From positions 1-38,461 of the forward strand of contig JABMRT010000131.1 of NCBI GenBank assembly GCA_013202295.1: a stretch of DNA of 38,461 bases, written 5' to 3'. The translations under genes and the position numbers were made by a program. Of this stretch, positions 1 to 29,962 are shown in pieces (position 1 is the stretch's first letter; each line of letters opens with the position of its first letter). Below the pieces are notes generated by a model, which worked only from the letters and a program-made list of their open reading frames with translations, was not told the DNA's origin and made no database searches. This DNA is from Candidatus Zhuqueibacterota bacterium. Its GTDB lineage: Bacteria > Zhuqueibacterota > QNDG01 > JABMRT01.

Positions 1-828
1 CTGAGCGGCCAAATCAGAGAGGATATCCCCGCACATGTTTTCCGCAACCAGCACGCCGTATTGTGTGGGATTTTTCACCAGCCACATACACTGCGCATCA
101 ATGTTCGTTTCCCATAATTCGATACCGGAATACTCTTTCGCAACAGATCTGGCCGTACGGATCATGAGCCCGCCGGTTTCGCGTAGCACATTGGGTTTAT
201 CCACCACGGTTACGGTATCTCGATGATTGGCTCGTGCATAGTCGAATCCGGATCGCAGAATCGTCTCGCATCCTTTTCGTGTCATGATACGGGTGGAGAG
301 AGCGATGTTGTCCAGCCCATGCGATTCGAACCGCGCCATTTTGGAATGATGCGCCTTGAGCACATCAAACACTTCCTGCGGAAGGGGGTGAAACTCCACA
401 CCGGAGTAGAGTCCTTCCGTGTTTTCACGAAAGATGATCAGATCGATATCCTCTTTATAGTTAAGGGGATTGCCGGGGTAAGATTTACAGGGCCGCATGT
501 TGGTATGCAGATGAAATTCTTGCCTGAGCCGAACAATGGGTGAAAAATAGACCAGCCCCTTATCCTGGAGAGACGGAATCAACTCCTTGGCCGCCTCCTG
601 TTTGGGCTTGGACGTAATCGCGCCGAACAGTCCGGCGTCTGTGGTTTTCATCATCTGTATAGTCCGGTCCGGCAGCCCATTCCCCTCCGTGCACCAGAAC
701 TCCCAACCGATGTCTCCGTGAATATACTCGGCATCGAATCCGAGCCTGTCCAAAACCAAGCGGGCAGCTTCCATTGTCTCTTTGCCAATCCCGTCTCCGG
801 GCAGCCATGCAATCCGGTATTTACTCAT
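1..828 (-). CDS. Isocitrate/homoisocitrate dehydrogenase family protein (partial, C-terminus outside window)
   Basis: This is a beta-decarboxylating NAD(P)-dependent dehydrogenase. The first 276 codons are in the window with no stop before position 1. The N-terminus carries the family start IAWLPGDGIG. The substrate region has LRQEFHLHTNMRPCKSYPG (about residues 100-120) and RENTEGLYSGVEF (about 139-151). The REN-TEG-YSG pattern is as in NAD-isocitrate and homoisocitrate dehydrogenases rather than isopropylmalate dehydrogenase. A lysine and aspartates of the metal site are visible in VDKPNV and NIDAQCMWLV. The ATG overlaps the end of the homoaconitase gene by 8 bp (ATGAGTAA), so the two are translationally coupled. 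With a Lys4-type homoaconitase next door, I infer that the substrate is homoisocitrate or 2-oxoadipate. Isocitrate remains possible, because motifs alone cannot separate the two. The enzyme class is sure; the substrate is not. Confidence 0.85.
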   Translation of the reverse strand, partial: MSKYRIAWLPGDGIGKETMEAARLVLDRLGFDAEYIHGDIGWEFWCTEGNGLPDRTIQMMKTTDAGLFGAITSKPKQEAAKELIPSLQDKGLVYFSPIVRLRQEFHLHTNMRPCKSYPGNPLNYKEDIDLIIFRENTEGLYSGVEFHPLPQEVFDVLKAHHSKMARFESHGLDNIALSTRIMTRKGCETILRSGFDYARANHRDTVTVVDKPNVLRETGGLMIRTARSVAKEYSGIELWETNIDAQCMWLVKNPTQYGVLVAENMCGDILSDLAAQ

Positions 829-2791
829 CCGTTAAATTCTCCTTGATCCATTGCGCCAATCCATCCAGTACAATGAGTTCCTGTGCGGCCCGACCCACGG
901 GCCGAAACGAGTAGGTCCAATCCTGAAACGTGACAGAGGACCGTATAAAATCAATCCTGACTTTCATGCCGGTACGAGCCGTCAGTCTTTCTGTCCCAAA
1001 ATCAAGTTTGATGACATCCACGAGTCTCGGAATCTCAAGCAGAAGAAATCCATTGTTCAATGCGTTCCGTTTGTATGTCTCACTGAATGATCCGGCAATG
1101 ACAAGCTGGATCCCCTTGTATTTCAAAGCTGTGGCTGCCTGCTCACGCGAACTGCCTGTGCCGAAATTGGTCCCGCCAATAAGGATATCCCCTTTCTTCA
1201 CGATCCGGCCAAACGCAGGATCGTAATTTTCCATCACGACCTTGGCCTGCTGTTCAAGCGTGAAATCATCCTGATACGTATATTTTCCCGGATAAATCGC
1301 ATCTGTATTCATATTATCAGCGGGACAATACACCAGCTCGCCGGTAATGGATTCAGGAAATCCTTCCATGATTTGAACAAGGGTGTCGTGGCTTTCCATT
1401 TGCGGTCGCACCGAACGATGCACCCTGATCGGTCCGTCATATTTGCACAGAGCGGGTGGACAATTAATATATCCCGAGAGCGCAGACTGAGCAACCACAG
1501 CCGGAGAGGCCAGGTACACCTCGGAGTTTTTGGATCCCATCCGCCCTTTAAAATTTCGGTTAGTGGCCGATATACCGGTTTCCCCATCCTCCATCAACCC
1601 TTCACCCAGGCCGATACAGGGTCCACATCCTGGGGGAAGCGGTTTGGCCCCGCTATGGATGAGTGTCTGCCAAGTACCCTGAGCTTCGCAGGTTTTTTGA
1701 ACAAGACTGGATGCAGCGGCGAAATAGAATTTAACATGCGGAGCTACTTTCTTCCGACCGATTATAACAGCTGCCGGAGTCAGATCTTCAACACGGGCGT
1801 TTACGCAGGATACGAGATAAGCCTTTTGAATCACAATCAGCATCTCCCGAATTTTACTGGCAGGCACCGCGGTTTTCAAATCATGCGGCCCGGCCACCAT
1901 GGGAATTACAGTGGAAAGATCCACTTTAATCTCGGAAGTATAACTTGAATCCGGGCCGGGCAAAAACAAACCATCCTGGATCTGCTGCTTCAGGATTTCG
2001 ATCCGTTTCGGTGTAATCCGAGGATGATAGTGTTTCGCTTTGAACGCCTGGATGGCTTCGAGTCGCTGCTCGAACCATTTCACAGTCATGGTATCCGCGG
2101 GAAACAATCCGGCCAGAGCGCCCCACTCGGTGCTCATATTGGCCATACTCAGCCGCTGATCAACGGACAGGGTTTCTACACCCGCACCATGAAACTCCAA
2201 CGCATGATTGAGCACCTCATCCTTGTTGAAATGGCTGCACAGAGCTAGCATCACATCCTTGCCGGTCACACCGAATCGGAGTTCGCCCGTCAGCGTGATC
2301 TTAACCACAGGCGGAATCTGCCACCAGGTTTTACCAGTCGCCCATATTCCAGCCGCATCTGTACGCACAATCGGAGTGCCGAGGCAGCCCAATCCACCAT
2401 ACATGTTCGCGTGACTGTCCGAGGCCACCACAAGCGTGCTGGGCCAGGCATATCCCTCTTCAACCATGATCTGATGTCCGATGCCCCGGCCAGCCGGGTA
2501 AAAATCCACCTGCTGGTCAATCGCGAAAGCGCGGATCGCTTCATACTTATTGCGGGTTGCCACACTGGTATCCTGAATGTTATGATCCAACGCGAACACG
2601 GGCTGACGTGGATCTAAAATTCGATCAACACCAATATTCTGGAACTTCGGTATAATCGCGCCCGTGTTGTCGTGCGTTAAAATATGTGCCGGATGGATGG
2701 AGACAAAATCTCCGCTTTGTACCTGCTCGTCCTCATGCAATCCCACAGCGAACATTTGGGCGATGCGTTCAATGAGGGTCTGATTGGTCAT
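821..2791 (-). CDS. Homoaconitase, fungal Lys4-like (aconitase superfamily)
   Basis: This enzyme would interconvert homocitrate, homoaconitate and homoisocitrate on a [4Fe-4S] cluster. It is a 656-residue single chain carrying both the large aconitase domain and the C-terminal swivel domain. The likely cluster ligands are Cys329 (VSCVNAR) and Cys389/Cys392 (GCGPCIGLG). The swivel motif FGTGSSREQAATAL is near 543-556. Long stretches look like yeast Lys4 and unlike mitochondrial or AcnA/AcnB aconitases: SGDFVSIHPAH, YPAGRGIGHQIM, GGLGCLGTPIVRTDAA and ATGKTWWQIPPV. Bacterial and archaeal lysine-pathway homoaconitases are usually two-subunit LeuCD-like enzymes, so a one-chain fungal type is notable. 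The motif usually read SCTNSR is SCVNAR here, a change close to the cluster. The ATG has AAGGA 5-6 bp upstream. The gene sits between the HD-domain gene (41 bp gap) and the dehydrogenase (8 bp overlap). The comparison with Lys4 is from memory, not from an alignment. Confidence 0.88.
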   Translation of the reverse strand: MTNQTLIERIAQMFAVGLHEDEQVQSGDFVSIHPAHILTHDNTGAIIPKFQNIGVDRILDPRQPVFALDHNIQDTSVATRNKYEAIRAFAIDQQVDFYPAGRGIGHQIMVEEGYAWPSTLVVASDSHANMYGGLGCLGTPIVRTDAAGIWATGKTWWQIPPVVKITLTGELRFGVTGKDVMLALCSHFNKDEVLNHALEFHGAGVETLSVDQRLSMANMSTEWGALAGLFPADTMTVKWFEQRLEAIQAFKAKHYHPRITPKRIEILKQQIQDGLFLPGPDSSYTSEIKVDLSTVIPMVAGPHDLKTAVPASKIREMLIVIQKAYLVSCVNARVEDLTPAAVIIGRKKVAPHVKFYFAAASSLVQKTCEAQGTWQTLIHSGAKPLPPGCGPCIGLGEGLMEDGETGISATNRNFKGRMGSKNSEVYLASPAVVAQSALSGYINCPPALCKYDGPIRVHRSVRPQMESHDTLVQIMEGFPESITGELVYCPADNMNTDAIYPGKYTYQDDFTLEQQAKVVMENYDPAFGRIVKKGDILIGGTNFGTGSSREQAATALKYKGIQLVIAGSFSETYKRNALNNGFLLLEIPRLVDVIKLDFGTERLTARTGMKVRIDFIRSSVTFQDWTYSFRPVGRAAQELIVLDGLAQWIKENLTDE

Positions 2792-2832: not shown

Positions 2833-3366
2833 TTATTTTACCAGCTCAAAATCAATGAAATCAGCGTGATGAAAAATAGTGGCTTCCGGGGATCGCTTCT
2901 CCCCCTCACCCTCTTTGGAATGGGTCGCGATCACATGCATCACTTCCGGGGGCAACTCATGTTTGAAAGCCAAACCCACCCCGCTGAACGGATGCCGAAG
3001 ATACTTGCCAAACTCTGATTTGCTCACCTGAAGGTCCCGTATCTCATACTCATAAAGTTTGCCCACATCCGCAAGCAACGCTCCTGCAATAAGAACATCA
3101 CGGTTCACAGGGGTCTTGTTCTTGCCATGACTTTGCGTCAGCACATCATTTACGGCCATACAAATCCGGCACACAGCCCTGACATGATCAATAAAAGAAA
3201 TCTGAACATCTTCAGCCAATAGAGTGAACGGGATACTTCTCAGTAATTCCTCGGTCCATCCACGAAAAAGCATGGCTTCGGTCCAGCAGGCAATGACCTG
3301 CTCATGAAGCTCTTCATCCTGAATTTCTCTGATCTCGGGTAAAATATTTAGAATCAGCTCTCTCAT
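2833..3366 (-). CDS. HD-domain protein with degenerate HD motif
   Basis: A 177-residue soluble protein of the HD phosphohydrolase superfamily; its substrate is unknown. A conserved helix holds DHVRAVCRI (first His), followed by GALLADVGKLYEYE, HPFSGVGLA, ATHSKEGEGE and HHADFID. The motif normally reading L-H-D-I-G-K is L-A-D-V-G-K here, so one metal-ligand histidine is alanine; the codon is GCG. That suggests an altered metal site or a non-hydrolytic role. I chose the ATG at 3366 over the GTG three bases upstream because GGAGG stands 4 bp before it, and the start then shares one base with the stop of the lyase gene (TGATG). Its place inside a CoA-ester operon suggests a role as a thioesterase, regulator or maturation factor, but nothing in the sequence decides this. 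Confidence 0.75.
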   Translation of the reverse strand: MRELILNILPEIREIQDEELHEQVIACWTEAMLFRGWTEELLRSIPFTLLAEDVQISFIDHVRAVCRICMAVNDVLTQSHGKNKTPVNRDVLIAGALLADVGKLYEYEIRDLQVSKSEFGKYLRHPFSGVGLAFKHELPPEVMHVIATHSKEGEGEKRSPEATIFHHADFIDFELVK

Positions 3367-4148
3367 CACGCCTCCGTATTCAGCGGTTTCGGTTCGGGTC
3401 CGTCATAGTGGCAGCTATCCGGGATAAACTTCCGCATGGGCTTTTGACGGGTTTGCTCTTCATGAATATGCGCGATGAGACCAGGCACGCGCGACAGTAT
3501 AAAAAATTGATTTCCGAGCGCCTTGGGTACGCCTAATTCCAGTAGCACAGCCGCAATCGCACCATCCACATTTAAGGGCAGAACCTTGCCAGATTCTTCT
3601 TGAAGGGTGGATTCAATGGTGCGAGCCATCTCAACATAGCGGCCGTTCTTTCCAGTCTCATCTGCCAGTCGAATAAGCTGTGTCGAGCGAGGATCAGCCG
3701 TGTGCAGCCGATGGCCAAATCCGGGCAGCCGTTTCTTAGCTTCACGATATTTTCGGATAATCTCAAGAGCCGTAGGATCGGGGGATTCCTCCTCACCCTG
3801 CAACTGGACAGCTTCGTCAAGCAGGTGCATACAATTCTCAATCGCACCCCCGTGATGCTGATTGATCGAGAGGATGCCCGCAGCCAGAGCTGCATTCATC
3901 GGCGCACCAGTGGACGCGGAATGCAGAGCAGCCAGAACAGAAGGCGGCGTAACTCCGTGATCGATGGAGGAAACCAAAATTGCATTGACAAGTCGGGATT
4001 CTCCTTGATCCGGCAATCTGCCGATAAGCGTCAGGAAGACCGCATCGGCAAACGAGACCTGAGCCATCAAATCTTCGACTGCATACCCGCGAATCCGGAT
4101 CTTATTGGGTGCCACATCCGTGATCTCTGTTTTCCACTCCCCTTCCAT
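3366..4148 (-). CDS. Citryl-CoA lyase-type (short citrate synthase family) protein
   Basis: A 260-residue member of the citrate synthase superfamily, the length of stand-alone citryl-CoA lyase and of the C-terminal lyase domain of ATP-citrate lyase, not of a full citrate synthase (about 370-430). The catalytic set is visible: His98/99 in NQHHGGAIE, His146 in PGFGHRLHTADPR and Asp195 in LNVDGAIAAVL. The segment DHGVTPPSVLAALHSASTGA is typical of the family. The known reaction cleaves citryl-CoA to acetyl-CoA and oxaloacetate. Because the neighbours are a homoaconitase and an ALDH7 enzyme, I infer homocitryl-CoA cleavage to acetyl-CoA and 2-oxoglutarate, or the reverse condensation. GAGGTG lies 4-5 bp before the ATG. 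The upstream gap of 108 bp is the largest inside the operon and contains a short heptamer repeat. Confidence 0.85.
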   Translation of the reverse strand: MEGEWKTEITDVAPNKIRIRGYAVEDLMAQVSFADAVFLTLIGRLPDQGESRLVNAILVSSIDHGVTPPSVLAALHSASTGAPMNAALAAGILSINQHHGGAIENCMHLLDEAVQLQGEEESPDPTALEIIRKYREAKKRLPGFGHRLHTADPRSTQLIRLADETGKNGRYVEMARTIESTLQEESGKVLPLNVDGAIAAVLLELGVPKALGNQFFILSRVPGLIAHIHEEQTRQKPMRKFIPDSCHYDGPEPKPLNTEA

Positions 4149-4256: not shown

Positions 4257-5156
4257 TCATAGTCCATTCAACACCGTCTTCGTCACTTCCGGAATCTGGT
4301 CAAACGAATCCACAATATGAGCGCCTGCCTCTCTGAGCGCAGCGACTTTCCCAGCATGCGTACCCCGCCCCCCTTCAATGATCGCGCCGGCGTGTGAAAA
4401 TCGCGTACCCTCCTTGGCAGCCTTGCCCCCAATAAATGCGACGACTGGTTTAGTGATTTCGCCAGTTTGGATCATCTCGGCCACACGCTCTTCCTGACTC
4501 GTGCCAATTTCACCGAAAAGGACAATAACTTTCGTTTCCGGATCTTCCTCGAACATCAGCATAATCTCGGGATGCGGCAAACCCACCACACTGTCCCCAC
4601 CCACATGCACCTGTGTCGAAAGTCCTATATCCGCCTGACTTAAATAATAGGCAATGGAGGAAGTGATTCCTCCGCTTCTGGAACTCAGACCGACTGGCCC
4701 ACGCTTAAACCACTGTCTGGCATTCTCCGCCCTGCCGCCCATCATGCCCAACACCGCACGTTGCGGACTGAGCACACCCAACGTATTTGGCCCCAAAAAT
4801 TGAACTCCCTTTTCCTTTGCCGAATGCGAAATCTCAAGCACATCCCAGACAGGCACACGGTCAGGGACAATAACAAGCAAGGGAATGCCTGCATCGATGG
4901 ATTCGAGCGCTGCATTTTTGACCAGCGGAGCCGGCACAAAAAGAACCGACACGTCAATCGGACCGACTTGCTCAACCGCTTCCTCAACCGTATTGAAAAC
5001 CGGCACGTCGAGGACATCCTCACCACCCTTTCCCGGTGTGCACCCGGCCACGACCTGCGTGCCGAACTCTTTCATCAAGCGGGTCCGGGCCCGGCCCTCA
5101 CGGCCCGTGATGCCTTGCACGAGCACCCGTTTGGTTTCATCAATCAGAATCGCCAT
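4257..5156 (-). CDS. SucD-like acyl-CoA synthetase alpha subunit (succinyl-/citryl-CoA synthetase family)
   Basis: The alpha subunit of an NDP-forming acyl-CoA synthetase; length 299, normal for SucD (about 290). It has an N-terminal CoA-binding Rossmann domain (VLVQGITGREG, residues 12-22), FLGPNTLGVLSP (120-131) and SSRSGGITSSIAYYL (158-172). The phosphorylated active-site histidine is His255 in RFSHAGAIIEGGRGTHAGK. It starts with ATG 2 bp after the stop of the SucC-like gene, so the two are surely co-made subunits. SucD, the small subunit of citryl-CoA synthetase and part of ATP-citrate lyase share these motifs. The adjacent lyase gene argues for a citryl- or homocitryl-CoA synthetase. Plain succinyl-CoA synthetase is the fallback reading. 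Confidence 0.88.
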   Translation of the reverse strand: MAILIDETKRVLVQGITGREGRARTRLMKEFGTQVVAGCTPGKGGEDVLDVPVFNTVEEAVEQVGPIDVSVLFVPAPLVKNAALESIDAGIPLLVIVPDRVPVWDVLEISHSAKEKGVQFLGPNTLGVLSPQRAVLGMMGGRAENARQWFKRGPVGLSSRSGGITSSIAYYLSQADIGLSTQVHVGGDSVVGLPHPEIMLMFEEDPETKVIVLFGEIGTSQEERVAEMIQTGEITKPVVAFIGGKAAKEGTRFSHAGAIIEGGRGTHAGKVAALREAGAHIVDSFDQIPEVTKTVLNGL

Positions 5157-5158
5157 AA

Positions 5159-6670
5159 TTAATCCAGCCCCGGGATGGGCAGCGTAATTTGTGCCGCATC
5201 CTTACCATACCGCAAACACTCCTGCTCACATGCCAGACACTCTGTACACTTGCCTTTGGCCGCTTCTTCCTGAGAGATGGCAAGAACGGGAAGTCCTTCT
5301 TCCAGTTTTAGGATATTGGGTCCGCACGCCTCTACGCAGATTTTAGATTCACATTGTACACATAAAGCATGATCAAAAACCACAGTTCCTTTTGTCACGG
5401 TCCGGAATTGATAGGGCTTTTCTGGAAACATAGCGGATTTCGGTTCTTCTTTTATTTTGAATGGATGGTGCCCATCCACGAGTGCTCGCAATCTCTTAGC
5501 ACAGAAGGATGCGGGATCATCCCGCTTATATCCTTCAACCGGAGTGGACAAATCCTGTGTGAAATAGTACAGGATTTCAACTGCCTCATCCTCCATGTTG
5601 CCGCCAAGCCGGATGACCGCCGGAATATCCAGGCCAACCTCACGGAAGGCCTTGACCAGCCCGCGCGCCGAATGCACTTGCTCCTGACTTGCCACACCTG
5701 ATCCGGATGCGAAATATCCGTCAATCCCTGGCTGAGATAGAATGATCTTCGCGGCCCGGTACACTTTGCTTGCTGGAGGATTCCCGCTTGTATCACAGAA
5801 ATTTGCGATCCGGAATCCTTCAGCCAGAAGGGCGTCCATGGACATCATAGAACCGCCACCACCAGCGCCATGAAATCCGATCACGCTCTCTCCTTTGTGA
5901 AAATCCTGTTCAAGCTGAATGAAATAAAAGGTACCGCGATAATCATGAAACTCCACATCATGTGCAATTTTATCCAGCTGCGTCGGAGGGTTTGAGAGTT
6001 CACGTGCAATCTCAATTCCCAATTCGGGATGCCGGAACACCGCATAATCATCAATCGCGATCCGGCAGTCCGCCGCGTAAAGCTCACCATCTGTGGTCAG
6101 AATAATGGGATTAATCTCAGCAGATCTGGCTTCATGGACTCTGGCAGTTTGGTACAAACGGACGAGAAGATCTGATAATTTGGATTGGAGCGAATCAGAG
6201 ATACCCGCTTTCTGGAGAAGATCCGCCGCTTCGGAAGGACACAGCCCCTTGATCACATCGATGTCCATGGACAGGGCACCCGCCTGATCTTCCACACCGG
6301 ATCCACCCTGCACATTGAAGAGCAGCACCGGTCCGGGTACACGATCATGAATGAGGATGGACGCGTAGAATTCTTGCCTGATGGAGAGTTCTTCTTCCAC
6401 GAGCACCGTTTCCACAACAAACTGACCAATCTTCTGACCAAGGATTTTTTCCGCTTGCTTCTCAGTATCGTGCGGAGAATCCGCAAATGCGATCCCGCCG
6501 GATGCGGCCCGACTCGTGGACCAGACCTGTGCCTTGATGACCACCGGGCATCCGATCTGTTCTGCGGCCCGACGCGCTTCCGAAGGCGAGTTTGCGATCA
6601 TTCCTTTCGGGATAGGAATCCCCTTCTCCTTCAGCAAAGTCTTGCCCTGATGTTCAAATAGGCGTGCCAT
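5159..6670 (-). CDS. SucC-like ATP-grasp acyl-CoA synthetase beta subunit fused to a 2[4Fe-4S] ferredoxin domain
   Basis: This is the beta subunit of an ADP-forming acyl-CoA synthetase, extended to 503 residues against about 390 for ordinary SucC. Residues 1-230 form the ATP-grasp domain (EHQGKTLLKEKGIPIPKG; EINPIILTTDGELYAADCR). Residues 255-400 form the CoA-ligase domain (GFHGAGGGGSMMSMD; GNPPASKVYRAAKII; IRLGGNMEDEAVEIL). Residues 425-495 are a ferredoxin-like tail with eight cysteines: 437, 440, 445, 449 (CX2CX4CX3C) and 475, 478, 481, 485 (CX2CX2CX3C). The first motif is spaced one wider than the second and no proline follows the last cysteine. The known synthetase reaction has no redox step, so the clusters may be structural, regulatory or for docking with an electron carrier. 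The start ATG overlaps the ALDH stop by one base (TGATG). Confidence 0.87.
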   Translation of the reverse strand: MARLFEHQGKTLLKEKGIPIPKGMIANSPSEARRAAEQIGCPVVIKAQVWSTSRAASGGIAFADSPHDTEKQAEKILGQKIGQFVVETVLVEEELSIRQEFYASILIHDRVPGPVLLFNVQGGSGVEDQAGALSMDIDVIKGLCPSEAADLLQKAGISDSLQSKLSDLLVRLYQTARVHEARSAEINPIILTTDGELYAADCRIAIDDYAVFRHPELGIEIARELSNPPTQLDKIAHDVEFHDYRGTFYFIQLEQDFHKGESVIGFHGAGGGGSMMSMDALLAEGFRIANFCDTSGNPPASKVYRAAKIILSQPGIDGYFASGSGVASQEQVHSARGLVKAFREVGLDIPAVIRLGGNMEDEAVEILYYFTQDLSTPVEGYKRDDPASFCAKRLRALVDGHHPFKIKEEPKSAMFPEKPYQFRTVTKGTVVFDHALCVQCESKICVEACGPNILKLEEGLPVLAISQEEAAKGKCTECLACEQECLRYGKDAAQITLPIPGLD

Positions 6671-8214
6671 CAGTCGAATTCAATCCCCTGAGCCAGGATG
6701 GTTTCTCCACTCCAGTTGATGGTATTGGTTTGTCGCCTCATGTACGCTTTCCATGCATCCGAGCCACTTTCTCTGCCACCCCCCGTTTCTTTCTCACCGC
6801 CGAACGCCAATCCGATCTCTGCACCACTCGTCCCCACATTCACATTCGCGATCCCGCAATCACTGCCGGTTGCGCTCAAGAACTGCTCAGATTCCCGCAA
6901 ATCATTCGTGAATATCGCAGAACTCAATCCCTGCGGTACCCCGTTTTGGATGTCAATTACCTCCTGAATCCCGCCTGAGTATCGAATCAGATAAAGCAGC
7001 GGCGCGAAGGTCTCTTCACACACAATGGGTAAATTGTCATCCACTTCTGCAAGGGCGGGCGTGACATAGCAGTCTCCGGAGTAGGCATCCCCTTCAAGTC
7101 TTTCGGGTTTCTTAAGCAAACGTCCGCCCTGCTTTTCAACCGCTTCGATTGCCGTAAACAGATTGTTTACAGCTGTGGAATCCACGAGTGGCCCCATGAG
7201 ATTCGATTCATTGATAGGATTCCCGATTGTGACCTTGTCATAATATTTTTGGAGGAGATCGCTGAATTCATCATAAATGGAATCCTCAACAATCACACGC
7301 CGTGTTGTAGTACAACGCTGCCCGGCCGTACCAATTGCACCGAAGAGGACGTTCTTTGCAGCAAGCTTCAAATCCGCTTTGGCCGTAACAATAATCGCAT
7401 TGTTCCCGCCCAATTCGAGAATGGTCTTGCCGAGCCGTTTGCCCACGCGCTCTGAAATGCGTTTGCCAATATGCGTGGAACCCGTGTAACTGATCAACTT
7501 CACGCGGGGATCTTCTGTCAGTAAATCCCCGAGCTCAGAACCTTTTCCGGTGATCAATGTGGAAATGGCGCTGGGTAATCCATTCATTTTGAGAACGGAT
7601 TCGAATATTTTCTGACAAGCAATTGCGGTCAGCGGAACCGCACTCGCCGGTTTCCAGAGACACACATCGCCTGCGATCAGAGCGATTGCTAAATTCCAGG
7701 CCCAGACTGCGACGGGAAAGTTAAACGCCGATATAATGCCCACAATACCCAAAGGATGCCACTGCTCATACATACGATGATTCGGCCGTTCGCTGTGCGT
7801 CTGCACCCCGTACAACATGCGGGACTGCCCTACGGCCAGATCACAGATGTCGATCATCTCCTGCACTTCACCCCACCCTTCCTGAATCGACTTGCCCATC
7901 TCGATAGTGACCAGCTTTCCCAGCGCATCCTTTTTATCCCGGAGCGCGTGTCCGAGCTGCCGAACAATCTCGCCCCGCTTGGGTGCCGGAACAGAGCGCC
8001 AAACGCAAAACGCCTCTTCCATTTTTGGAATGAGGCGTTCATAATCTTCAGGACTACCCTGCATCACTTTCGCGATGACCTGCCCGTTAATCGGGCTGAT
8101 TGAGTCGATGGTTTTCCCTGTCCCGAACCACGATTCACCATCCGACACACCGGGATTTTCAGAATTCAAATTAAGGGCTTTCAATACAGCATCCAGCTCC
8201 TCAATCGGTTTCAT
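6670..8214 (-). CDS. ALDH7-family dehydrogenase (alpha-aminoadipate semialdehyde / piperideine-6-carboxylate dehydrogenase)
   Basis: An NAD(P)-dependent aldehyde dehydrogenase of the antiquitin (ALDH7A1/AmaB/Pcd) subfamily. The family oxidises alpha-aminoadipate semialdehyde, formed from lysine, to alpha-aminoadipate. The length of 514 fits. The catalytic residues are Asn165 (ISAFNFPVAVW), Glu267 (ILELGGNNA) and Cys301 (GTAGQRCTTTRR). The subfamily-specific C-terminal run is present: NVGTSGAEIGLAFGG, ETGGGRESGSDAWKAYMRRQ, then TNTINWSG and LAQGIEFD. It is the first gene of the metabolic operon, with AGAGG 6 bp before the ATG. This identity is the strongest clue that the operon deals with lysine and C6 intermediates rather than citrate. 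Other ALDH7 substrates such as betaine aldehyde are known for the animal enzyme, so the substrate is an inference. Confidence 0.92.
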   Translation of the reverse strand: MKPIEELDAVLKALNLNSENPGVSDGESWFGTGKTIDSISPINGQVIAKVMQGSPEDYERLIPKMEEAFCVWRSVPAPKRGEIVRQLGHALRDKKDALGKLVTIEMGKSIQEGWGEVQEMIDICDLAVGQSRMLYGVQTHSERPNHRMYEQWHPLGIVGIISAFNFPVAVWAWNLAIALIAGDVCLWKPASAVPLTAIACQKIFESVLKMNGLPSAISTLITGKGSELGDLLTEDPRVKLISYTGSTHIGKRISERVGKRLGKTILELGGNNAIIVTAKADLKLAAKNVLFGAIGTAGQRCTTTRRVIVEDSIYDEFSDLLQKYYDKVTIGNPINESNLMGPLVDSTAVNNLFTAIEAVEKQGGRLLKKPERLEGDAYSGDCYVTPALAEVDDNLPIVCEETFAPLLYLIRYSGGIQEVIDIQNGVPQGLSSAIFTNDLRESEQFLSATGSDCGIANVNVGTSGAEIGLAFGGEKETGGGRESGSDAWKAYMRRQTNTINWSGETILAQGIEFD

Positions 8215-12143: not shown

Positions 12144-13262
12144 TCAATCCGTCACTTCAAGAATCTTCTCCACAATCCATTCCTGATCCTCTTTCGGCAA
12201 TTCGGGATAAATGGGCAATGCAAATATTTCACGGGACATTCTCTCGGCAATCGGCAGGCTGCCCTCGCCAAATCCCATATCCCTGAAAGCAGGTTGAAGA
12301 TGGAGTGGGATCGGATAATAGACAGCGCATCCGATCTGATGCTTGCGAAGATTATCAAGAACCGCGTCTCGTTTCTCGGTACAGGCACAGTACTGATGAA
12401 ACACATGCGTGTTCGTTTCGGCTGTGATGGGAGTGATCACATTCGAAGATTTAAGGAGTGTATTATACTTCTCGGCACGTTCGCCACGCGCCTTTCCCCA
12501 ATCATCCAGATGACGAAGACGCACTCGTAGAATCGCGGCCTGAAGCGTATCAAGTCGGCTATTCACACCCAGAATGTCATGCTGATATTGTATACGTGAA
12601 CCGTGATTCCGGATCATGCGAAGCTTGTCGGCCAACTTCTCATCAGAGGTCATAATCATGCCGCCATCCCCATAAGCTCCGAGGTTCTTGGATGGGAAAA
12701 AGCTGAGGCATGCCATTTCACCCAGACCACATATCGGACGTCCCTTATAAGTTGCGCCAATTGCCTGCGCTGCATCCTCGATGACAGGGATTCCATGTTT
12801 GGCAGCAATCGCCTGAATGGGATCCATGTCTACAGACTGACCGAATAAATGCACGGGGATGATCGCCTTCGTCTTGTCCGTAATCGCTGCTTCTATCAAA
12901 TCAGGATTGATATTGTAGGTGTCGGGCAGGATATCGACAAACACACATTTCGCACCCAACAATCCGACCACTTCTGCGGTCGCTACAAATGTAAATGGGG
13001 TTGTGATAATCTCGTCACCTGGACCTACTTCCAGGGTCATGAGAGCCATCTGAAGTGCGTCTGTGCCGGAATTGCATCCAATTGCGAACTTGGATTCTGT
13101 GTAGACAGCAATCTCGTCTTCGAGGGCTCGGACATCCGGCCCCATAATAAATTGGCAACTGTCTAATACGGATTGGATGGCGCTGTTGATCTCATCCTTC
13201 ATGGATTGATATTGACCCTTCAGATCAAGCATCGGTATGGGCTTATGAGTTTCGTTTGACAT
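12144..13262 (-). CDS. DegT/DnrJ/EryC1/StrS-family nucleotide-sugar aminotransferase
   Basis: A PLP-dependent aminotransferase that places an amino group on a keto-sugar nucleotide for surface glycans; 372 residues, typical length. The Schiff-base lysine is Lys192 in FFPSKNLGAYGDGG. The PLP-binding Asp163 is in IEDAAQAIGA. The substrate region is FIMGPDVRALE, with GCNSGTDALQMAL (62-74). The start resembles WbpE/WlbC enzymes, which act on UDP-3-keto-GlcNAc uronate. That fits the UDP-HexNAc dehydrogenase in the same locus, but the exact sugar is inferred. AAGGA lies 6 bp before the ATG. It is the last sugar gene of the operon. Confidence 0.9.
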   Translation of the reverse strand: MSNETHKPIPMLDLKGQYQSMKDEINSAIQSVLDSCQFIMGPDVRALEDEIAVYTESKFAIGCNSGTDALQMALMTLEVGPGDEIITTPFTFVATAEVVGLLGAKCVFVDILPDTYNINPDLIEAAITDKTKAIIPVHLFGQSVDMDPIQAIAAKHGIPVIEDAAQAIGATYKGRPICGLGEMACLSFFPSKNLGAYGDGGMIMTSDEKLADKLRMIRNHGSRIQYQHDILGVNSRLDTLQAAILRVRLRHLDDWGKARGERAEKYNTLLKSSNVITPITAETNTHVFHQYCACTEKRDAVLDNLRKHQIGCAVYYPIPLHLQPAFRDMGFGEGSLPIAERMSREIFALPIYPELPKEDQEWIVEKILEVTD

Positions 13263-13328
13263 GTTATATCCTTAATGTTAATGAGTCTTCAAATGGAGCT
13301 TGTCCGCCATAGCTTTAGCGGCGGCAGA

Positions 13329-14729
13329 TTAATGTCCCTTTCCGGCGAGCATCACATAAAGCGTATTCAGAATTATTTTCAAATCCATGCGAAGGGACAT
13401 ATTCTCAAGATAAAAAAGATCGAACTCCAGCTTGTGTTTCACTTGCTCGAGGGATTGATCATACTCCCCCTTGACCTGCGCCCATCCTGTAATTCCGGGA
13501 CGAATACGAAGCCGCCGCGCGTAAAGTGGAAACATCTCCTTCAACTGTTCCACAAAGTAAGGCCGTTCCGGGCGGGGTCCCACAAGAGCCATATCACCCC
13601 GAAGAACATTTATGAGCTGCGGGAACTCATCCAGCCTGAGCTTGCGCATGATACGACCGATCGATGTGATTCGGGGATCGTTTTTACCTGCCCACACCGG
13701 GCCAGAATGTTTTTCCGCATCCTGAACCATAGTGCGGAACTTGATGACTTTAAAAAGTTTTCCGTTTAAACCTACACGCGTTTGTGTATAAAAAATTGGA
13801 CCTTTTGAGGTCAACTTGATGAGCAAGGCCAGTATAAGACCGAAAGGAAGGAAGACCGTTGTACCCAAAAAAGATAGAACAAAATCTCCGGCCCGCTTGA
13901 CTAGTCGCTCCCAAGGCACCATCAATTCCGGCAGGATCTCAATTAGTGGGAATCCATAAATCTGATTGGTGCGTACCTGACCAATAATTAAATCGTAAAG
14001 ATCCGGCACAATCTTGATGCCTACCCCTGTATTATTGCATTGACCGATGATTACTTCGAGCATTTTTTCAGAATGCCCAGGAAGCGCGACTACCACTTCC
14101 TGAACTTGATTGGATTCGATAACCTGATGCAGCAATTCCAGCTGCCCAAGCACGGGAATCTCTTTATAGACACTTCCCTCTTTTATTTCCTTGGATGTCA
14201 CAAATCCGATTACATTGTATCCAAGCGCGGGTGCACTCTGGGCCATGTCCAGCACATCACGGGCTTTCTTTCCCCAACCCACTATGACAGTACGCCGATG
14301 ACCTATACCCTTCTTCAACATCAATCTGTGAACCGATCTGAGGAAAACGCGTCCGCCGCTCACAAAAAAGATCATCATTGCCCAGTATAAAAATATAAAT
14401 ATACGGCTGGTCTGAATCGGAGTAGAGAGATCGTGAGAAATGTCCATGGTGAATACAAAAATCAGTAATGTGCCCACAGTCACCACTTTAATCACATCGA
14501 TGATTTCATCAATTCGGGAGTGAGTGAATTGAATGCGATGTAATCCAAAAAATACAAAAACCACATACCAGCACACAAACAGTATGAGAGAAAGCATTAT
14601 TTTCTCACTCATGTCCGGGATGGACATAAATCCTGCCCTTTGCCGCAACTGACACCACAGGATGAAAGTGAGGTTGATGGTAATGAAATCGATCAGAAGT
14701 AATAGAATTTTTTCGATGTGCTTGGACAT
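13329..14729 (-). CDS. Polyprenyl-phosphate hexose-1-phosphate transferase (WbaP-like)
   Basis: The initiating enzyme of repeat-unit assembly: it transfers a sugar-1-phosphate from a nucleotide sugar to undecaprenyl phosphate at the inner membrane. It has 466 residues. The N-terminal part has about four membrane helices within residues 8-125. A central Rossmann-like CoA_binding_3 region has [17 protein letters not shown] (145-161). A fifth hydrophobic segment (about 278-300) leads into the bacterial sugar transferase domain with [37 protein letters not shown] and [16 protein letters not shown]. The C-terminal motifs are diagnostic for PF02397. Which sugar is used cannot be read off. Confidence 0.93.
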
Positions 14730-14738
14730 AGTTAAAAT

Positions 14739-15833
14739 TTACTTGTACTTCATTAAAATCTGGATGATTCTTTCGGATACTTTATCATCCCAATACTTGG
14801 GAATATCACCGGGCTTTACATGCCCTGAAATAATCTCTTGACTCGCGGCTATTAATTTATTAGGATCAGTTCCAATTAACTGATTGGTACCGACCTCAGT
14901 TGTGATAGGCCGTTCTGTATTATTGCGAATAGTTAAACAGGGAACTCCGAAATATGTTGTCTCCTCCTGAATACCACCGGAATCTGTCATCACAAATTTG
15001 GCATTCTTCTGTAAATTTAGAAAATCATAATATCCAATTGGATTTAAAAGATACAAGCGATCATTGAAATCCTTCATGTTCAACTGAAATTTCTGAATTT
15101 GTTTCTGGGTCCGGGGGTGTGCTGGAAATATGACCGGTATGTTTTTACTGATTTTTACCACAGCATTAAGGATTGCTTCCAAAGATTGTGCATGATCAAC
15201 ATTCGAAGGACGATGCAATGTTAGAAGGGCGTATTGTTCATTCTTAAGAGGAAGGGTATAACGGATTGTGGACTGGTCAATTTGATCAATATGCTGTATC
15301 AGGGATTCGATCATCAAGTTTCCGACAAAATGGATTTTGGTTTGCTGTATCCCCTCTCGCATCAAATTCCCCTCTGCCTCAGGGGAGGTGATAAAAAGGA
15401 GATCTGAAATCTGATCCGTGAGAATCCGGTTGATTTCTTCCGGCATCTCCCGGTCATAACTTCTGAGACCAGCTTCGATGTGCGCAATAGGTGTTGATAG
15501 TTTGCTGGCAACCAACGCGCACGCAATCGTGGAATTCACATCACCGACCACAATGATCAAATCCGGTTTGGAAGAGAGTAAAACTTTCTCAAACTCTATC
15601 ATGATGTTAGCTGTTTGAACGGCATGGGATCCGGATCCGATGCCAAGAAAAACATCCGGATCAGGGAGTCCTAAACTCTCGATAAAGGAGTGTGACATAT
15701 TTTGATCATAATGCTGACCCGTATGCACAAAAATGGGTTGAAAAAAATTGGAATATTCCTGCATTCTCTTATACAGGGGAGCAATTTTCATGAAATTTGG
15801 TCGAGCGCCGGCGACCAATAGAGTTTTCAACAT
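14739..15833 (-). CDS. wecB: UDP-N-acetylglucosamine 2-epimerase (non-hydrolysing)
   Basis: Converts UDP-GlcNAc to UDP-ManNAc, or a related 2,3-diacetamido sugar, in the cytoplasm; 364 residues, standard length. The family motifs are GARPNFMKIAPL (9-20), FVHTGQHYDQNMS, GDVNSTIACALVASKL, HIEAGLRSYDREMPEEINR and TDSGGIQEE near the C-terminus. The ATG is clear. The gap to the heparinase-like gene (76 bp) is the longest within the polysaccharide locus. With the UDP-HexNAc dehydrogenase it suggests ManNAc or ManNAcA-type residues in the polymer. A WbpI-type 2,3-diacetamido epimerase is a possible alternative. Confidence 0.92.
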   Translation of the reverse strand: MLKTLLVAGARPNFMKIAPLYKRMQEYSNFFQPIFVHTGQHYDQNMSHSFIESLGLPDPDVFLGIGSGSHAVQTANIMIEFEKVLLSSKPDLIIVVGDVNSTIACALVASKLSTPIAHIEAGLRSYDREMPEEINRILTDQISDLLFITSPEAEGNLMREGIQQTKIHFVGNLMIESLIQHIDQIDQSTIRYTLPLKNEQYALLTLHRPSNVDHAQSLEAILNAVVKISKNIPVIFPAHPRTQKQIQKFQLNMKDFNDRLYLLNPIGYYDFLNLQKNAKFVMTDSGGIQEETTYFGVPCLTIRNNTERPITTEVGTNQLIGTDPNKLIAASQEIISGHVKPGDIPKYWDDKVSERIIQILMKYK

Positions 15834-15909
15834 AGCAGAACCGTTGTTTCAATGGTGAGTGCAACTGAACTTAAATATTAAAGATACTATTTAAAATGAA
15901 GAAAAGCAA

Positions 15910-17664
15910 TTAGATAGATTTAGAACTCAAAGCGATTTGTGCTTCTACGGATGAATCAGTTGATTGGGAGACAACATAGATGATTTGATCGTGGGAATTA
16001 TTTGGCTTTAGTACAATCATTTTTGAATCGACTTTTTCTCCATATGAGGGAATGTAAAACCATTCTCGTAATTCGGATTGAATATTAAATTGATCAAATA
16101 TTATATAGATCTCTGTTTCTCCCTGTATTATTTTATAAGTACCGGAACCGGTTACGACCCCACACAATGGATGAAGATGAATTAGACTCTCAATTGGAGC
16201 ATTTCCAATCACCTCAAAACGATCTGTTACTACGAACTGGGTCTTATTAAATTCGATTGAGCGATAATAGGTATGAGGGAGTTTTCGATTGATTTTACTA
16301 TGATAATCTCCCTCAAAGATAATTCTATCTGGATGATATGCAATCCTGACTTTCGGAGAGGAAATCCTTCTTCCCATTCGAAATGCGCCCCAGAAATCAG
16401 CCTGCTCAATTCTGCCTAAGATTGACACATTATGTGAATATACACTTCTTGCCTGATTTCGTAATGTCGAAGGAAGATACTCTCCGATGCCACTATCAAC
16501 AATAAATCGATTTTTTCCAATTGAATATTCAAAACTGAACATATCGCAATGTGCATGGCCCGGCTGATAACGGACACCCAGTTCGCCACCGTCAATTATA
16601 ATTGTATGATTCGGTGATTGAAAAACAAAGTATCCACTTTCCGGCAGGGCGCGGACTTGTAATGTCTGATTTTGCACCATAGCGGAGGGTTTAATGTCAA
16701 TCAGCTTATTAAAATAATCCTTTATCTGTTTTAGTGGAACACATTCGCCTATTGAGGAATCTCCGAAGAGTGCGATTTTCCCATCGGGATGAATCATGGT
16801 CTCAAGCCATTGCATCATTGTAGCGGATGTCTGCTTTAGTTTTGAATAAAGTTGTAATTCATCGTTTCCAAGTGATGTGGATTGAAATATTTGAATGAGA
16901 TCCAGCAAATCGATGAGGAAATATCCGTGATACATCGGAGATCTTTCATAATGTCCCCCATCCAATAAAACTTGCTCGGCAAGTTCATGCTTTAATAAGA
17001 AAATCCCTCGTTTGAGCCATTTTTCATTGTTATAAAAAGCTCCAGCCCAGATAAGCGCCTTCAAATTCGAGAAAAGATGGTTCGCCAGGATATTGTATTC
17101 AATAAAGTACGTTAAATAATGACATTGCTGGTAAATTGATTGAATTACTTGAGAATGAAATGGTTCGTCATGGTGGATGGAATCCTCGAATTTACAATAA
17201 AAATAGATCCAGTTGACAATCCTCAAAGAGAGAGGATAGGGCTCCCACCCAATCCCATAACCAATGGGATTGCTATTTATCCAATCCTCAATAACGTTTT
17301 TTGCTTCTGAATAGTCACCTTCAGTTTGGTTATCTTGTTGAAGTAGATAGTTAAAATAATGCAGATTATAAAGCCATAATTTTGAACAGGCTTTTTTGTT
17401 CCATTCAATATGCGTATCAAACTGGATTGGCTGATTGAGAAATGTAAATGAATTGATTTTTAGATTAACTTGTCGATGAGCAGTGGGTTTATCAATGAAT
17501 GAAAAGACTTGGGTGAAAAAATCTGTATTCGATTGTTTATTTATTTTGGATGCAATAATTTTATTTAATAAAATCTTTTTAACATATAGTGTAATGCGGC
17601 TCCAGACTTGGACCGCCTTTAAGTATCGGATCGTATTTAGGTATAAATCAAGCCGTGAGCGCAT
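15910..17664 (-). CDS. Heparinase II/III-family protein, apparently cytoplasmic
   Basis: A 584-residue protein with an (alpha/alpha) toroid N-terminal half and a beta-sandwich C-terminal half, as in heparinase II/III and alginate lyases. The motifs are GIGWEPYPLSLRIVNW, NHLFSNLKALIWAG and GGHYERSPMYHGYFLIDLLD (candidate catalytic Tyr and His), then PGHAHCDMFSFEY and RNQARSVYSHNV. Catabolic family members are secreted, but no signal peptide is present here: the N-terminus MRSRLDLYLNTIRYLKAVQ is charged. Proteins of this type recur in polysaccharide clusters next to the bi-domain oxidoreductase, as here (6 bp gap). That fits a part in glycan assembly or modification rather than degradation. Its substrate is unknown. 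Confidence 0.87.
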   Translation of the reverse strand: MRSRLDLYLNTIRYLKAVQVWSRITLYVKKILLNKIIASKINKQSNTDFFTQVFSFIDKPTAHRQVNLKINSFTFLNQPIQFDTHIEWNKKACSKLWLYNLHYFNYLLQQDNQTEGDYSEAKNVIEDWINSNPIGYGIGWEPYPLSLRIVNWIYFYCKFEDSIHHDEPFHSQVIQSIYQQCHYLTYFIEYNILANHLFSNLKALIWAGAFYNNEKWLKRGIFLLKHELAEQVLLDGGHYERSPMYHGYFLIDLLDLIQIFQSTSLGNDELQLYSKLKQTSATMMQWLETMIHPDGKIALFGDSSIGECVPLKQIKDYFNKLIDIKPSAMVQNQTLQVRALPESGYFVFQSPNHTIIIDGGELGVRYQPGHAHCDMFSFEYSIGKNRFIVDSGIGEYLPSTLRNQARSVYSHNVSILGRIEQADFWGAFRMGRRISSPKVRIAYHPDRIIFEGDYHSKINRKLPHTYYRSIEFNKTQFVVTDRFEVIGNAPIESLIHLHPLCGVVTGSGTYKIIQGETEIYIIFDQFNIQSELREWFYIPSYGEKVDSKMIVLKPNNSHDQIIYVVSQSTDSSVEAQIALSSKSI

Positions 17665-17670
17665 ACTGCC

Positions 17671-19842
17671 TCATTCATATGGATGAAAAGTAATTACATC
17701 GCCTTTGGCCAGAGATTCTTGAACAAGCAAAGTCAGTTTTGTCGCATTACAAGCATCCTGAAATGAGATGGTTGAGGCTGCGCCATCTGATATCGACTGC
17801 AAAAATGAAGCGACACTCTGATTGTGCCCTTTATCCTGTTTCCCTGTTTTAAACTGGGTGGTCTTCCCTTTTTTAATCACGTTGCTTTTTCTAAAATCAT
17901 CAAGAATTGCAACATAGTCTTTGGCGAGGATTTCGATTCGCTCCTTCGGTAATGCTTTGTCACCAACCGCTGAATAGGTAATTGTACCTACAGAACCATT
18001 GCTATATTTCAGAATGATGGATACTGAATCATTAAGACCCGTATAGGAATCCATGGATTCTGCATAGAGTTTAATGGGATACGATTTAGTGAAAAAATTG
18101 ATCAAATCAATAAAATGACAAACTTCACCAATAATTCGCCCTCCACCCTGCTCAAGATCCTGTGTCCAATGATCTTTCGGAATGAATCCTGCATTCACTC
18201 TGTAATGAATCATCTTCGGAGAATTGGGAGAAAAGCTGGATATGATCCATTCCACATGAGGTGAAAATCTTCGATTGAAACCCGTCATAACATGCCCGGG
18301 TTGGGCATTATATTCCTGTACCAAAGAATCAAGTTCATCCTGAAGTATTGCCAGTGGTTTCTCAACATACACTGCTTTATTCTTCTTAAGACAATCAGAA
18401 ACCAACTTGGCATGTAAATGATGACGCGTTGCAATAAAAACAGCATGTACATCAGGGTCGTTCAGCACCGCGTCATTATTTGTGGTTGCCACGGTAAATC
18501 CGAATTTCTTGGCCGCACCCTGACTGGTGATGCCCCTTGTTGTGGATACATATTGCAACTTTACATTCTTTACATTTTTTACGGCCGGAATTAAAAACCT
18601 TTGCGCAAAGTTGCCTGCGCCGATAAATCCAACATGGACCTTGTCATGGGACGATACATTTGACTGATCGATATCATTTATAACGATCTGATCCTTCGCA
18701 TCAGTTGTTTTATTTTCGGAATATTCAAACAGAATTCCCTGAAAATAGGTTTTTATTTTGTTTTTTCCTGTAACCAAATCATAGGCCTCTTCAGCCTGAT
18801 CAATGAGAAAAGTGTGCGTAATGAAAGGCCTAATTTGGATTTTTTTCTGTGAAACAAGCTGAAGAAATGAATGCATATTTCTTTGTTCTGTCCATCGCAC
18901 ATAACTGAATGGATAATCGAAACCTTTCTCCTCATACAGTGGATCATATCGTCCGGGGCCATATGAACATGAATATCGAAAATCAATCTCTTTCTCATAA
19001 AACGGGCTTCTTGGTAAATTCGCGGGAACCAAGCCGACCAGAACAACGACACCTTTTCTCTTGAGAATTTCTCCAGCATTAACAATTGGCGCGTTGTCAT
19101 TTGTTGAGGCAGTGATAATTACTTTGTCTATTCCAAGGCCCATTGTAATGGATTCTGATATATGGACAAGGTCACGGTCGCTTATGGTCGCATGGTCTGC
19201 CCCCATACTTATAGCGCTGTCACAGGAGGACTCTCGGATATCCATCCCAACGACAATGCACCCCGCTGCTTTGAGAATTTGTACGGTCAGTAATCCAAGA
19301 AGCCCCAAACCAATCACTGCAACCGTCTCGCCGACCGTGATATCCGCTTGACGAACCCCTTGCATGGCAATCGCACCCAATGTGGCAAATGCGGCCTCAT
19401 CCAAACCCACATCTTTCGGGACTTTAACCGCCAGATTTTTCGGTACGAATATTTGCTCTGCGTGCGAGGCATAGCCTTGACCGGCGCATGCGACAGAATC
19501 TCCTACTTTAATTCCTTCAACATCATCTGCAACTGCGAGAACTTTACCTGCAGAGCTATAACCAAGAGCGATGGGAGCATCCAACTTGTTACGCACCACA
19601 TCAATTGTATGCAGGAGGCCGTCTCTCTTGATGGATTGTTTTACTTTATCAACCAGATCTGGTCGGCTCTGGGCCTTACCCACAATATTCTTTTGCGCAG
19701 TGGCTACAGTCAGTCGTTCAGTGCCCGCGCTGATCACTGAGTAGCGATTCGCAACAATAATTCCACCGGGTTGTAACGCTGGTGCAGGAACATCCTGAAT
19801 GCTCAGTTCACCCGATTTGAAATTCTGTATTACTTGCCTCAC
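17671..19842 (-). CDS. Bi-domain oxidoreductase (zinc-ADH-like + Gfo/Idh/MocA)
   Basis: A 723-residue fusion. Residues 1-375 are an MDR/alcohol-dehydrogenase-like domain (VQILKAAG after the nucleotide loop VAVIGLGLLGLLT near 170-182). Residues about 400-723 are a Gfo/Idh/MocA domain starting HVGFIGAGNFAQRFLIP and carrying the YVEKPLA motif. Two dinucleotide sites on one chain suggest sequential or coupled oxidation and reduction of a sugar, with NAD(H) recycled between the domains. The start is GTG, chosen because AGGAG lies 7 bp upstream and MRQVIQNFKSGEL matches the usual start of the family. The pairing with the heparinase-like gene is a recurrent theme in surface-glycan loci; the reaction is not known to me. 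Confidence 0.9.
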   Translation of the reverse strand: MRQVIQNFKSGELSIQDVPAPALQPGGIIVANRYSVISAGTERLTVATAQKNIVGKAQSRPDLVDKVKQSIKRDGLLHTIDVVRNKLDAPIALGYSSAGKVLAVADDVEGIKVGDSVACAGQGYASHAEQIFVPKNLAVKVPKDVGLDEAAFATLGAIAMQGVRQADITVGETVAVIGLGLLGLLTVQILKAAGCIVVGMDIRESSCDSAISMGADHATISDRDLVHISESITMGLGIDKVIITASTNDNAPIVNAGEILKRKGVVVLVGLVPANLPRSPFYEKEIDFRYSCSYGPGRYDPLYEEKGFDYPFSYVRWTEQRNMHSFLQLVSQKKIQIRPFITHTFLIDQAEEAYDLVTGKNKIKTYFQGILFEYSENKTTDAKDQIVINDIDQSNVSSHDKVHVGFIGAGNFAQRFLIPAVKNVKNVKLQYVSTTRGITSQGAAKKFGFTVATTNNDAVLNDPDVHAVFIATRHHLHAKLVSDCLKKNKAVYVEKPLAILQDELDSLVQEYNAQPGHVMTGFNRRFSPHVEWIISSFSPNSPKMIHYRVNAGFIPKDHWTQDLEQGGGRIIGEVCHFIDLINFFTKSYPIKLYAESMDSYTGLNDSVSIILKYSNGSVGTITYSAVGDKALPKERIEILAKDYVAILDDFRKSNVIKKGKTTQFKTGKQDKGHNQSVASFLQSISDGAASTISFQDACNATKLTLLVQESLAKGDVITFHPYE

Positions 19843-19855
19843 TCAAATGCTCCTT

Positions 19856-20893
19856 TTATTGATATGATGATGAAATGTCGGAATAAAGTGAACAAATCGT
19901 ATCATAGCTATCTTTTATTACCACAGTTTTTAATTTTTCTATCTCTTGAGAATAATTATTAATAACGTAAGCAAGCGCATCTTTAAGCGACTTGCTCTTT
20001 CTGCATTGATACAGAATCGAGCCGTTGGGCCGATCTGTGACATCCGTGGCAAGAGCCGGAACACCCATAGTTAAGGCTTCCGCGACAGCAAGACCATATG
20101 AATCAGCATCTGTATTTCTGACATAAACATCATGATCAGCTAATAATTGTGAAAACTGATCTAAGGACATGGATTGATGAACCGTTACAAAATCCTCATT
20201 GAAATCAGCTTTGATTTGTTTTTTATATCCTTCATCCTGATCGCCATAAAGTACAATTGAAAGTTGTATGTTGTATCCAGAACGATTTAGGTCTTTTATA
20301 ACATGGATGAGTCCATCATAATTGTAGATCGGTTTTAGATAGCCACTTGTAATCACTTTAATATTATTTTTATCAAACATGGATCGTTTTAGTGTCTGAT
20401 CATATGCGATATATGAATGAGCTCGAATGATTGAACCGCGATAATGATTTACTCGTAAATGTTCCTCAATTTGTTTGTTTATTGCAATGATAGTCCCAAA
20501 TTTGGATAGAAATCGATCAATTATTTTTTGTTTAAAACCGCGATGGTTATCATACGTTACTGGGTATTGGCCGCTATGAATTGTTAATAAGGTTGTACTT
20601 CTTTTATAAATAAAAAGGCTTAATAGAATGAATGGTGCAATCTTATAAATTTTATTCAAATTCGATACATGGATATGATTGATACTGTGTAATGACAGTA
20701 CGCATATTTTAAAAAAGTGACTCCTCAAATCATAGACAAAAAAACGGGTCGGGTATTTCACTCCTGATCGGATTGTATCCACCACCACCACACCATAGCC
20801 ATCCGCCTCTAACCTTGATGCGAGATGGAAGATATGGTTTGTTTGTCCTCCAATCGGTTCAGGAATACCCCCCCATATTAAAATTTGTTTCAT
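19856..20893 (-). CDS. Glycosyltransferase family 4
   Basis: A retaining GT-B glycosyltransferase, 345 residues. The N-terminal acceptor domain begins ILIWGGIPEPIGGQTNHIFHLASRLEADGY. The C-terminal donor site carries VRNTDADSYGLAVAEALTMG, the E-x7-E type motif of GT4. It would add one sugar to the lipid-linked repeat unit on the cytoplasmic face. At 345 residues it is on the short side for GT4. It lies 9 bp after the stop of the next transferase gene. Donor and acceptor are unknown. Confidence 0.86.
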   Translation of the reverse strand: MKQILIWGGIPEPIGGQTNHIFHLASRLEADGYGVVVVDTIRSGVKYPTRFFVYDLRSHFFKICVLSLHSINHIHVSNLNKIYKIAPFILLSLFIYKRSTTLLTIHSGQYPVTYDNHRGFKQKIIDRFLSKFGTIIAINKQIEEHLRVNHYRGSIIRAHSYIAYDQTLKRSMFDKNNIKVITSGYLKPIYNYDGLIHVIKDLNRSGYNIQLSIVLYGDQDEGYKKQIKADFNEDFVTVHQSMSLDQFSQLLADHDVYVRNTDADSYGLAVAEALTMGVPALATDVTDRPNGSILYQCRKSKSLKDALAYVINNYSQEIEKLKTVVIKDSYDTICSLYSDISSSYQ

Positions 20894-20901
20894 TATAAAA
20901 T

Positions 20902-22158: not shown

Positions 22159-22204
22159 AATATTGTTCTCATAAATGAATAATGTTTTAAAAATTGTTGA
22201 TTAA

Positions 22205-23512: not shown

Positions 23513-23513
23513 T

Positions 23514-24590: not shown

Positions 24591-24596
24591 TCGTCT

Positions 24597-27290: not shown

Positions 27291-27334
27291 TATGATATAT
27301 TACCCTAAATAATTGACAAATTTTCGCTGAACAA

Positions 27335-28639: not shown

Positions 28640-28646
28640 TTTTGAA

Positions 28647-29948: not shown

Positions 29949-29962
29949 TTCAATCCTTCTTC

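Follow-up and report, generated by a model that had tools for sequence, protein, structure and literature searches.

The closest described relatives of the locus are the citryl-CoA synthetase CcsAB (6HXQ) and the citryl-CoA lyase Ccl (HtCcl; 6HXP) of Hydrogenobacter thermophilus. Like them, our operon divides the work between two enzymes, with the same fold and catalytic residues and a lyase of one module, but its neighbours are lysine and homocitrate genes and the beta subunit of its ligase bears a ferredoxin-like tail. A second comparison is with lysine biosynthesis by the alpha-aminoadipate (AAA) pathway of fungi (LYS4, LYS12), where the same intermediates are expected and where, as in the operon, there are two dehydratases. 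Fungal homoaconitase acts only between homoaconitate and homoisocitrate, homocitrate being left to another dehydratase (Fazius et al. 2012, PMC3556520). The operon differs from the fungal pathway in having a ligase and a lyase instead of homocitrate synthase, L-piperideine-6-carboxylate (2-aminoadipate semialdehyde) dehydrogenase (P6CDH) in place of aminoadipate reductase, and a second dehydratase that is PrpD-like rather than an aconitase; the direction proposed for it is also the opposite. Finally, bacterial lysine catabolism through P6CDH and 2-aminoadipate has the same entry, an omega-transamination followed by P6CDH, but leads to decarboxylation of 2-oxoadipate to glutaryl-CoA, whereas the operon is proposed to carboxylate 2-oxoadipate on the way to homocitrate.

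The window, meaning the whole stretch of 38,461 nucleotides that was analysed, holds the greater part of this operon on its minus strand. Nine co-directional genes, separated by gaps of -8 to +108 nt, run off the end of the contig onto contig C123. In order of transcription, these are P6CDH (6670..8214, 514 aa), the ATP-grasp acyl-CoA synthetase beta-like SUCC (5159..6670, 503 aa), the acyl-CoA synthetase alpha-like SUCD (4257..5156, 299 aa), the citryl-CoA-lyase-family protein CCL (3366..4148, 260 aa), an HD-domain protein (2833..3369, 178 aa) that overlaps CCL by 4 nt, a fused fungal-type homoaconitase, HAC (821..2791, 656 aa), a homoisocitrate-dehydrogenase-like protein, HICDH, an MmgE/PrpD dehydratase, and a class III aminotransferase. 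The gaps from P6CDH through HICDH are -1, +2, +108, -4, +41, and -8 nt, and the P6CDH stop and SUCC start overlap as TGATG. Only the first 276 aa of HICDH lie in the window (1..828), where the gene is cut by the contig end. A search of the organism's own genome with the Iso_dh family found the other half at the opening of C123 (L109:1-360). We infer the junction from the ends of the two contigs, which share a 66-bp overlap containing one mismatch. On C123, the MmgE/PrpD gene (L109:357-1730) follows after a gap of -4 nt and the aminotransferase gene (L109:1759-3093) after +28 nt. Elsewhere in the window, 12144-30967 is an exopolysaccharide cluster with glycosyltransferases, a flippase, Wzz, polysaccharide export, UDP-sugar enzymes, a heparinase-like protein, and DUF6337.

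CCL is a protein of ordinary fold and family inside an unusual, coherent operon. Its ATG at 4148 is immediately preceded by GAGGTG as a ribosome-binding sequence. Two NCBIfam citryl-CoA lyase models are matched above their cut-offs (NF004866, 266.7 bits against 245; NF004869, 265 against 212). The closest solved structure in a sequence search was 6HXP (E 1e-57), which was also the best fold match of the AlphaFold model (pLDDT 91; 41% identity). In Pfam, CCL matches citrate synthase over the C-terminal part only, the match expected of the lyase module by itself, in agreement with the first-pass annotation, which had given it the length of the lyase and an intact catalytic His/His/Asp set. That set is His99, His146, and Asp195, and these residues, together with Arg154 and Arg220, were invariant in an alignment of 40 homologues. 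The same annotation had described the lyase as stand-alone, which must be revised, since it is the fourth gene of an operon that continues past the left edge of the window. The family name would imply cleavage of citryl-CoA to acetyl-CoA and oxaloacetate (EC 4.1.3.34), but the context argues instead for homocitryl-CoA.

Several of the other operon products could be assigned with curated models. P6CDH scored above the equivalog cut-off of NF050084 (750.8 bits against 730), and HAC was far above that of the homoaconitase model TIGR00139 (764.4 bits against 529.9). The best NCBIfam model for HICDH was the homoisocitrate dehydrogenase AksF2 (NF040626), with 329.3 bits against a cut-off of 540, so it is classed not as AksF but only as working like a homoisocitrate dehydrogenase. 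Its best solved relative was the homoisocitrate dehydrogenase of T. thermophilus (230 bits, compared to 216 for the best isocitrate dehydrogenase). The substrate loop of HICDH, SPIVRLRQ, matches SPIVALRK of the S. pombe enzyme (3TY3), a Lys12-type SPIV motif, and does not have the S-x-N motif of isocitrate dehydrogenase (IDH), as in SLNVALRQ. 2-Methylisocitrate was rejected as a substrate of HICDH on chemical grounds because it is a tertiary alcohol. The PrpD-like protein matched PF03972 (240 bits) and PF19305 (165 bits) and fell far below the cut-off of the 2-methylcitrate dehydratase equivalogs (97 against 950). The aminotransferase passed the cut-off of PRK05769 (643 bits against 552) and is of the Lys/Orn omega-aminotransferase type. 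Its nearest PDB entry was 7VNO, a 454-aa 'hypothetical 4-aminobutyrate aminotransferase', which we take to be Pyrococcus horikoshii PH1423. PH1423 and TK2101 are Orn/Lys omega-aminotransferases that accept L-Lys, and the acceptors of TK2101 include 2-oxoadipate (PMC9986279).

The putative homocitrate-CoA ligase consists of SUCC (beta; PF08442, PF16114) and SUCD (alpha; CoA_binding and Ligase_CoA domains). The PDB relatives of SUCC were succinyl-CoA synthetase and citryl-CoA synthetase 6HXQ, and SUCD scored 300 bits with the succinate-CoA ligase alpha model, under its cut-off of 336. The C-terminal ~60 aa of SUCC are the ferredoxin-like tail, with eight Cys, which is unusual for an acyl-CoA synthetase. 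The Cys pattern is kept in most homologues; three Planctomycetota copies (L040, L055, and L061) retain the tail with most Cys gone, and L013 has no tail. The HD protein (PF01966, 4e-09) has ALLADVGK in place of the ALLHDVGK of archaeal relatives, and its HD motif thus seems to have lost the metal-binding His. Despite this altered motif, the HD gene recurs beside CCL elsewhere.

We propose that CCL acts as a homocitryl-CoA lyase in the direction of cleavage, as the last step of a lysine catabolism that reverses the first half of the AAA pathway, and we give this reading a probability of roughly 0.6. Each substrate, catalytic step, and direction is predicted from gene content and order, families, motifs, and co-occurrence. 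The class III aminotransferase would convert L-lysine and 2-oxoglutarate to aminoadipate semialdehyde/P6C and glutamate, and P6CDH would oxidize P6C to 2-aminoadipate, producing NADH. The same or another aminotransferase could then form 2-oxoadipate, a step for which none of the nine operon genes is dedicated. HICDH, running in reverse, would use CO2 and NAD(P)H to turn 2-oxoadipate into homoisocitrate, which HAC would dehydrate to homoaconitate. The PrpD-like protein would next yield homocitrate, and we propose that it is just such a second dehydratase as fungal homoaconitase needs. The equilibrium between homoaconitate and homocitrate lies far towards homocitrate, thus favouring this direction (Fazius et al. 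2012, PMC3556520). SUCC and SUCD would spend ATP and CoA to make homocitryl-CoA, and CCL would release acetyl-CoA and 2-oxoglutarate by retro-Claisen cleavage. By arithmetic, the net conversion would be lysine + 2-oxoglutarate + CO2 + ATP + CoA to acetyl-CoA + 2 glutamate, and this would be redox neutral provided that P6CDH and HICDH draw on one cofactor.

The best-placed alternative, though an unlikely one, is a true citryl-CoA synthetase and lyase, a two-enzyme ATP-citrate lyase as in Aquificales. It would cleave citrate for a reductive TCA cycle or act as a reversible bypass of citrate synthase, with HAC and HICDH as an odd aconitase and isocitrate dehydrogenase. This reading is consistent with the family assignment and the nearest structures. 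Also, genes for a pyruvate-dehydrogenase-type E1, lipB, and nuo adjoin the cluster in several Calditrichota; they flank it in some Calditrichota and Fidelibacterota that do not have P6CDH (L117/L021, 10112-12170; L015, 4485-6533). However, the operon's aconitase- and IDH-type enzymes are not the only ones of the genome, which speaks against a role in a reductive TCA cycle. A citrate synthase of 379 aa is encoded on contig C35, and contig C100 encodes a canonical aconitase (983 bits against 612) and, after it, a monomeric NADP-IDH (1298 bits against 950). There is also a separate leucine cluster on contig C186. With these TCA and leucine enzymes located elsewhere, the operon homologues are extra copies. 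Most cluster genomes likewise hold another Iso_dh protein and a full-length citrate synthase. Citrate cleavage is further at odds with a TIGR00139 homoaconitase in the operon, an HICDH that does not have the S-x-N motif, and the translational coupling of P6CDH to SUCC. Lysine synthesis in this genome appears to proceed by diaminopimelate, since DapF, the member of that pathway that was searched for, was found (232 bits), as it was in 12 of the 13 other genomes tested. Together, DapF and the separate citrate synthase, aconitase, and IDH indicate that the operon is not accounted for by the TCA cycle or by lysine synthesis.

The lyase sequence itself was compared with citryl-CoA lyase. The active sites are alike, which speaks against a different substrate, and the positions at which copies linked to SUCC and SUCD differ from HtCcl are correlated with context only. 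In a tree of CCL homologues, HtCcl clusters with Zixibacteria and Thermoplasmatota copies on a well-supported branch, apart from the ligase-linked ones. The window branch is long, and the ligase-linked copies do not form one clade. These copies differ from the HtCcl group at T80, N96, [HFYW]98, and N213, where HtCcl has G, G, A, and K, and in CCL, the Lys, Gly, and Ala found in HtCcl at 213, 96, and 98 are replaced. We regard the four positions as candidate specificity residues. CCL also reads GHRxHxxDPR where HtCcl has GHRYYKDFDPR, with one residue deleted between the catalytic His146 and Arg154. This deletion was rejected as a signature for homocitrate because it is present in copies of other contexts, namely solitary copies and Thermoplasmatota copies linked to a CitF-type CoA-transferase. 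The latter loci, including L087 (2907-7510), have the order HD, CitF-type CoA-transferase, CCL, and a fused aconitase/homoaconitase-like gene. It is possible that they represent a CoA-transfer version of the same cleavage.

A second alternative, which we consider improbable, concerns direction: CCL and the ligase would make homocitrate from 2-oxoglutarate and acetyl-CoA with a gain of ATP, supplying 2-oxoadipate and 2-aminoadipate. The first-pass annotation had leaned this way, suggesting a homocitryl-CoA lyase that might run backwards with the ligase and replace homocitrate synthase. The substrate it named is favoured by the homoaconitase, the homoisocitrate-dehydrogenase-like enzyme, P6CDH, and the separate TCA enzymes, while the direction is not. 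The chemistry is reversible in principle, and the cluster lies by pyruvate-dehydrogenase-type E1 genes in some relatives. No PF00682 protein among those scanned, a set without the copy in the leu cluster, reached a homocitrate synthase cut-off (241 against 463 for nifV; 194 against 414 for LysS). Neither a 4-hydroxy-2-oxovalerate-aldolase-like protein on C87 nor a CimA-like protein on C1 was supported as a homocitrate synthase. On the other side, the presence of DapF in this genome and nearly all others tested argues against this direction, and so does the equilibrium on the homocitrate side (PMC3556520). P6CDH would turn lysine-derived P6C into aminoadipate and would not be expected to catalyse the reverse reaction. 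P6CDH and a Lys-type aminotransferase point to lysine breakdown as the likely role of CCL, rather than the synthesis of homocitrate.

The distribution of the cluster was followed in a set of 80 relatives obtained from one profile scan of genome contigs. The block SUCC-SUCD-CCL-(HD)-(hydro-lyase)-HICDH-(PrpD-like) recurs in Calditrichota, Fidelibacterota, Chloroflexota, Acidobacteriota, and Planctomycetota. Within the organism's own phylum, TIGR00139 proteins were found in 8/10 genomes with the CCL cluster and 2/49 others (Fisher p 8.5e-7, uncorrected for kinship). None of 14 control genomes had a match to this model. The two relatives of the same taxonomic family have neither CCL nor the TIGR00139 gene, and acquisition of the operon is therefore possible. 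In Planctomycetota, 16/392 genomes have TIGR00139. Among 15 further TIGR00139 loci of Planctomycetota, HICDH lies within ~10 kb in 11 and the SUCC-SUCD-CCL-HD block in three. At the planctomycete locus L182, HAC, HICDH, and P6CDH stand together with a divergent PrpD-like gene; the P6CDH (4704-6815), directly after HICDH, is fused to an N-terminal macro domain and scores 728 bits against the cut-off of 730. L182 and the window operon are the only two cases seen in which lysine genes are linked to the core cluster. In Spirochaetota (L032-L036), SUCC-SUCD-CCL lies beside ABC-transporter-like genes and a recurrent gene of 610-724 aa; this is a different context, and the stretch has neither HICDH nor HAC.

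P6CDH was present in 6/22 cluster genomes tested, compared to 1/14 controls, and the substrates that enter the cluster in most relatives may thus come from a source other than lysine. In the four Acidobacteria, P6CDH sits on a contig other than that of the cluster. Most relatives have LeuC/LeuD-type hydro-lyases or an HAC located elsewhere, and no further lysine genes were found around the unlinked HAC of Calditrichota or the unlinked P6CDH of Acidobacteria. The 16 genomes without P6CDH and the permissive Iso_dh and LeuC/LeuD-like families would allow another pair of 2-oxo acid and malate derivative (of isopropylmalate or citramalate type, for example), with the lysine genes of the window an unrelated addition, but this is very improbable given the TIGR00139 score, the SPIV motif, the HAC-HICDH linkage in a second phylum, the independent P6CDH linkage in L182, and the separate leucine cluster on C186.

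In the open-licence PMC literature, a scope that leaves subscription papers and preprints outside and so makes any novelty provisional, there was no mention of 'homocitryl-CoA' and nothing relevant on lysine degradation via homocitrate or homoisocitrate or on a homocitrate lyase or cleavage. The published term 'reverse alpha-aminoadipate' was rejected as a precedent, since it denotes only the conversion of saccharopine to aminoadipate. We put at about even odds the broader proposal of a previously undescribed, full lysine catabolic pathway, in which the upper AAA route would be reversed, 2-oxoadipate reductively carboxylated, and homocitrate cleaved at the expense of ATP by homocitrate-CoA ligase and homocitryl-CoA lyase, with the lower half, from 2-oxoadipate to acetyl-CoA and 2-oxoglutarate, in at least five bacterial phyla. 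If true, genes would be gained for the synthesis and cleavage of homocitryl-CoA, activities with no assignment in the literature searched. The lysine-making AAA route would prove reversible, in the way that the TCA cycle has its reductive counterpart. This would also account for the recurrent clusters of uncultured phyla whose current annotation is citrate cleavage or succinyl-CoA synthetase, and carbon-fixation surveys that use Ccs/Ccl homologues as markers of the reductive TCA cycle may miscount.
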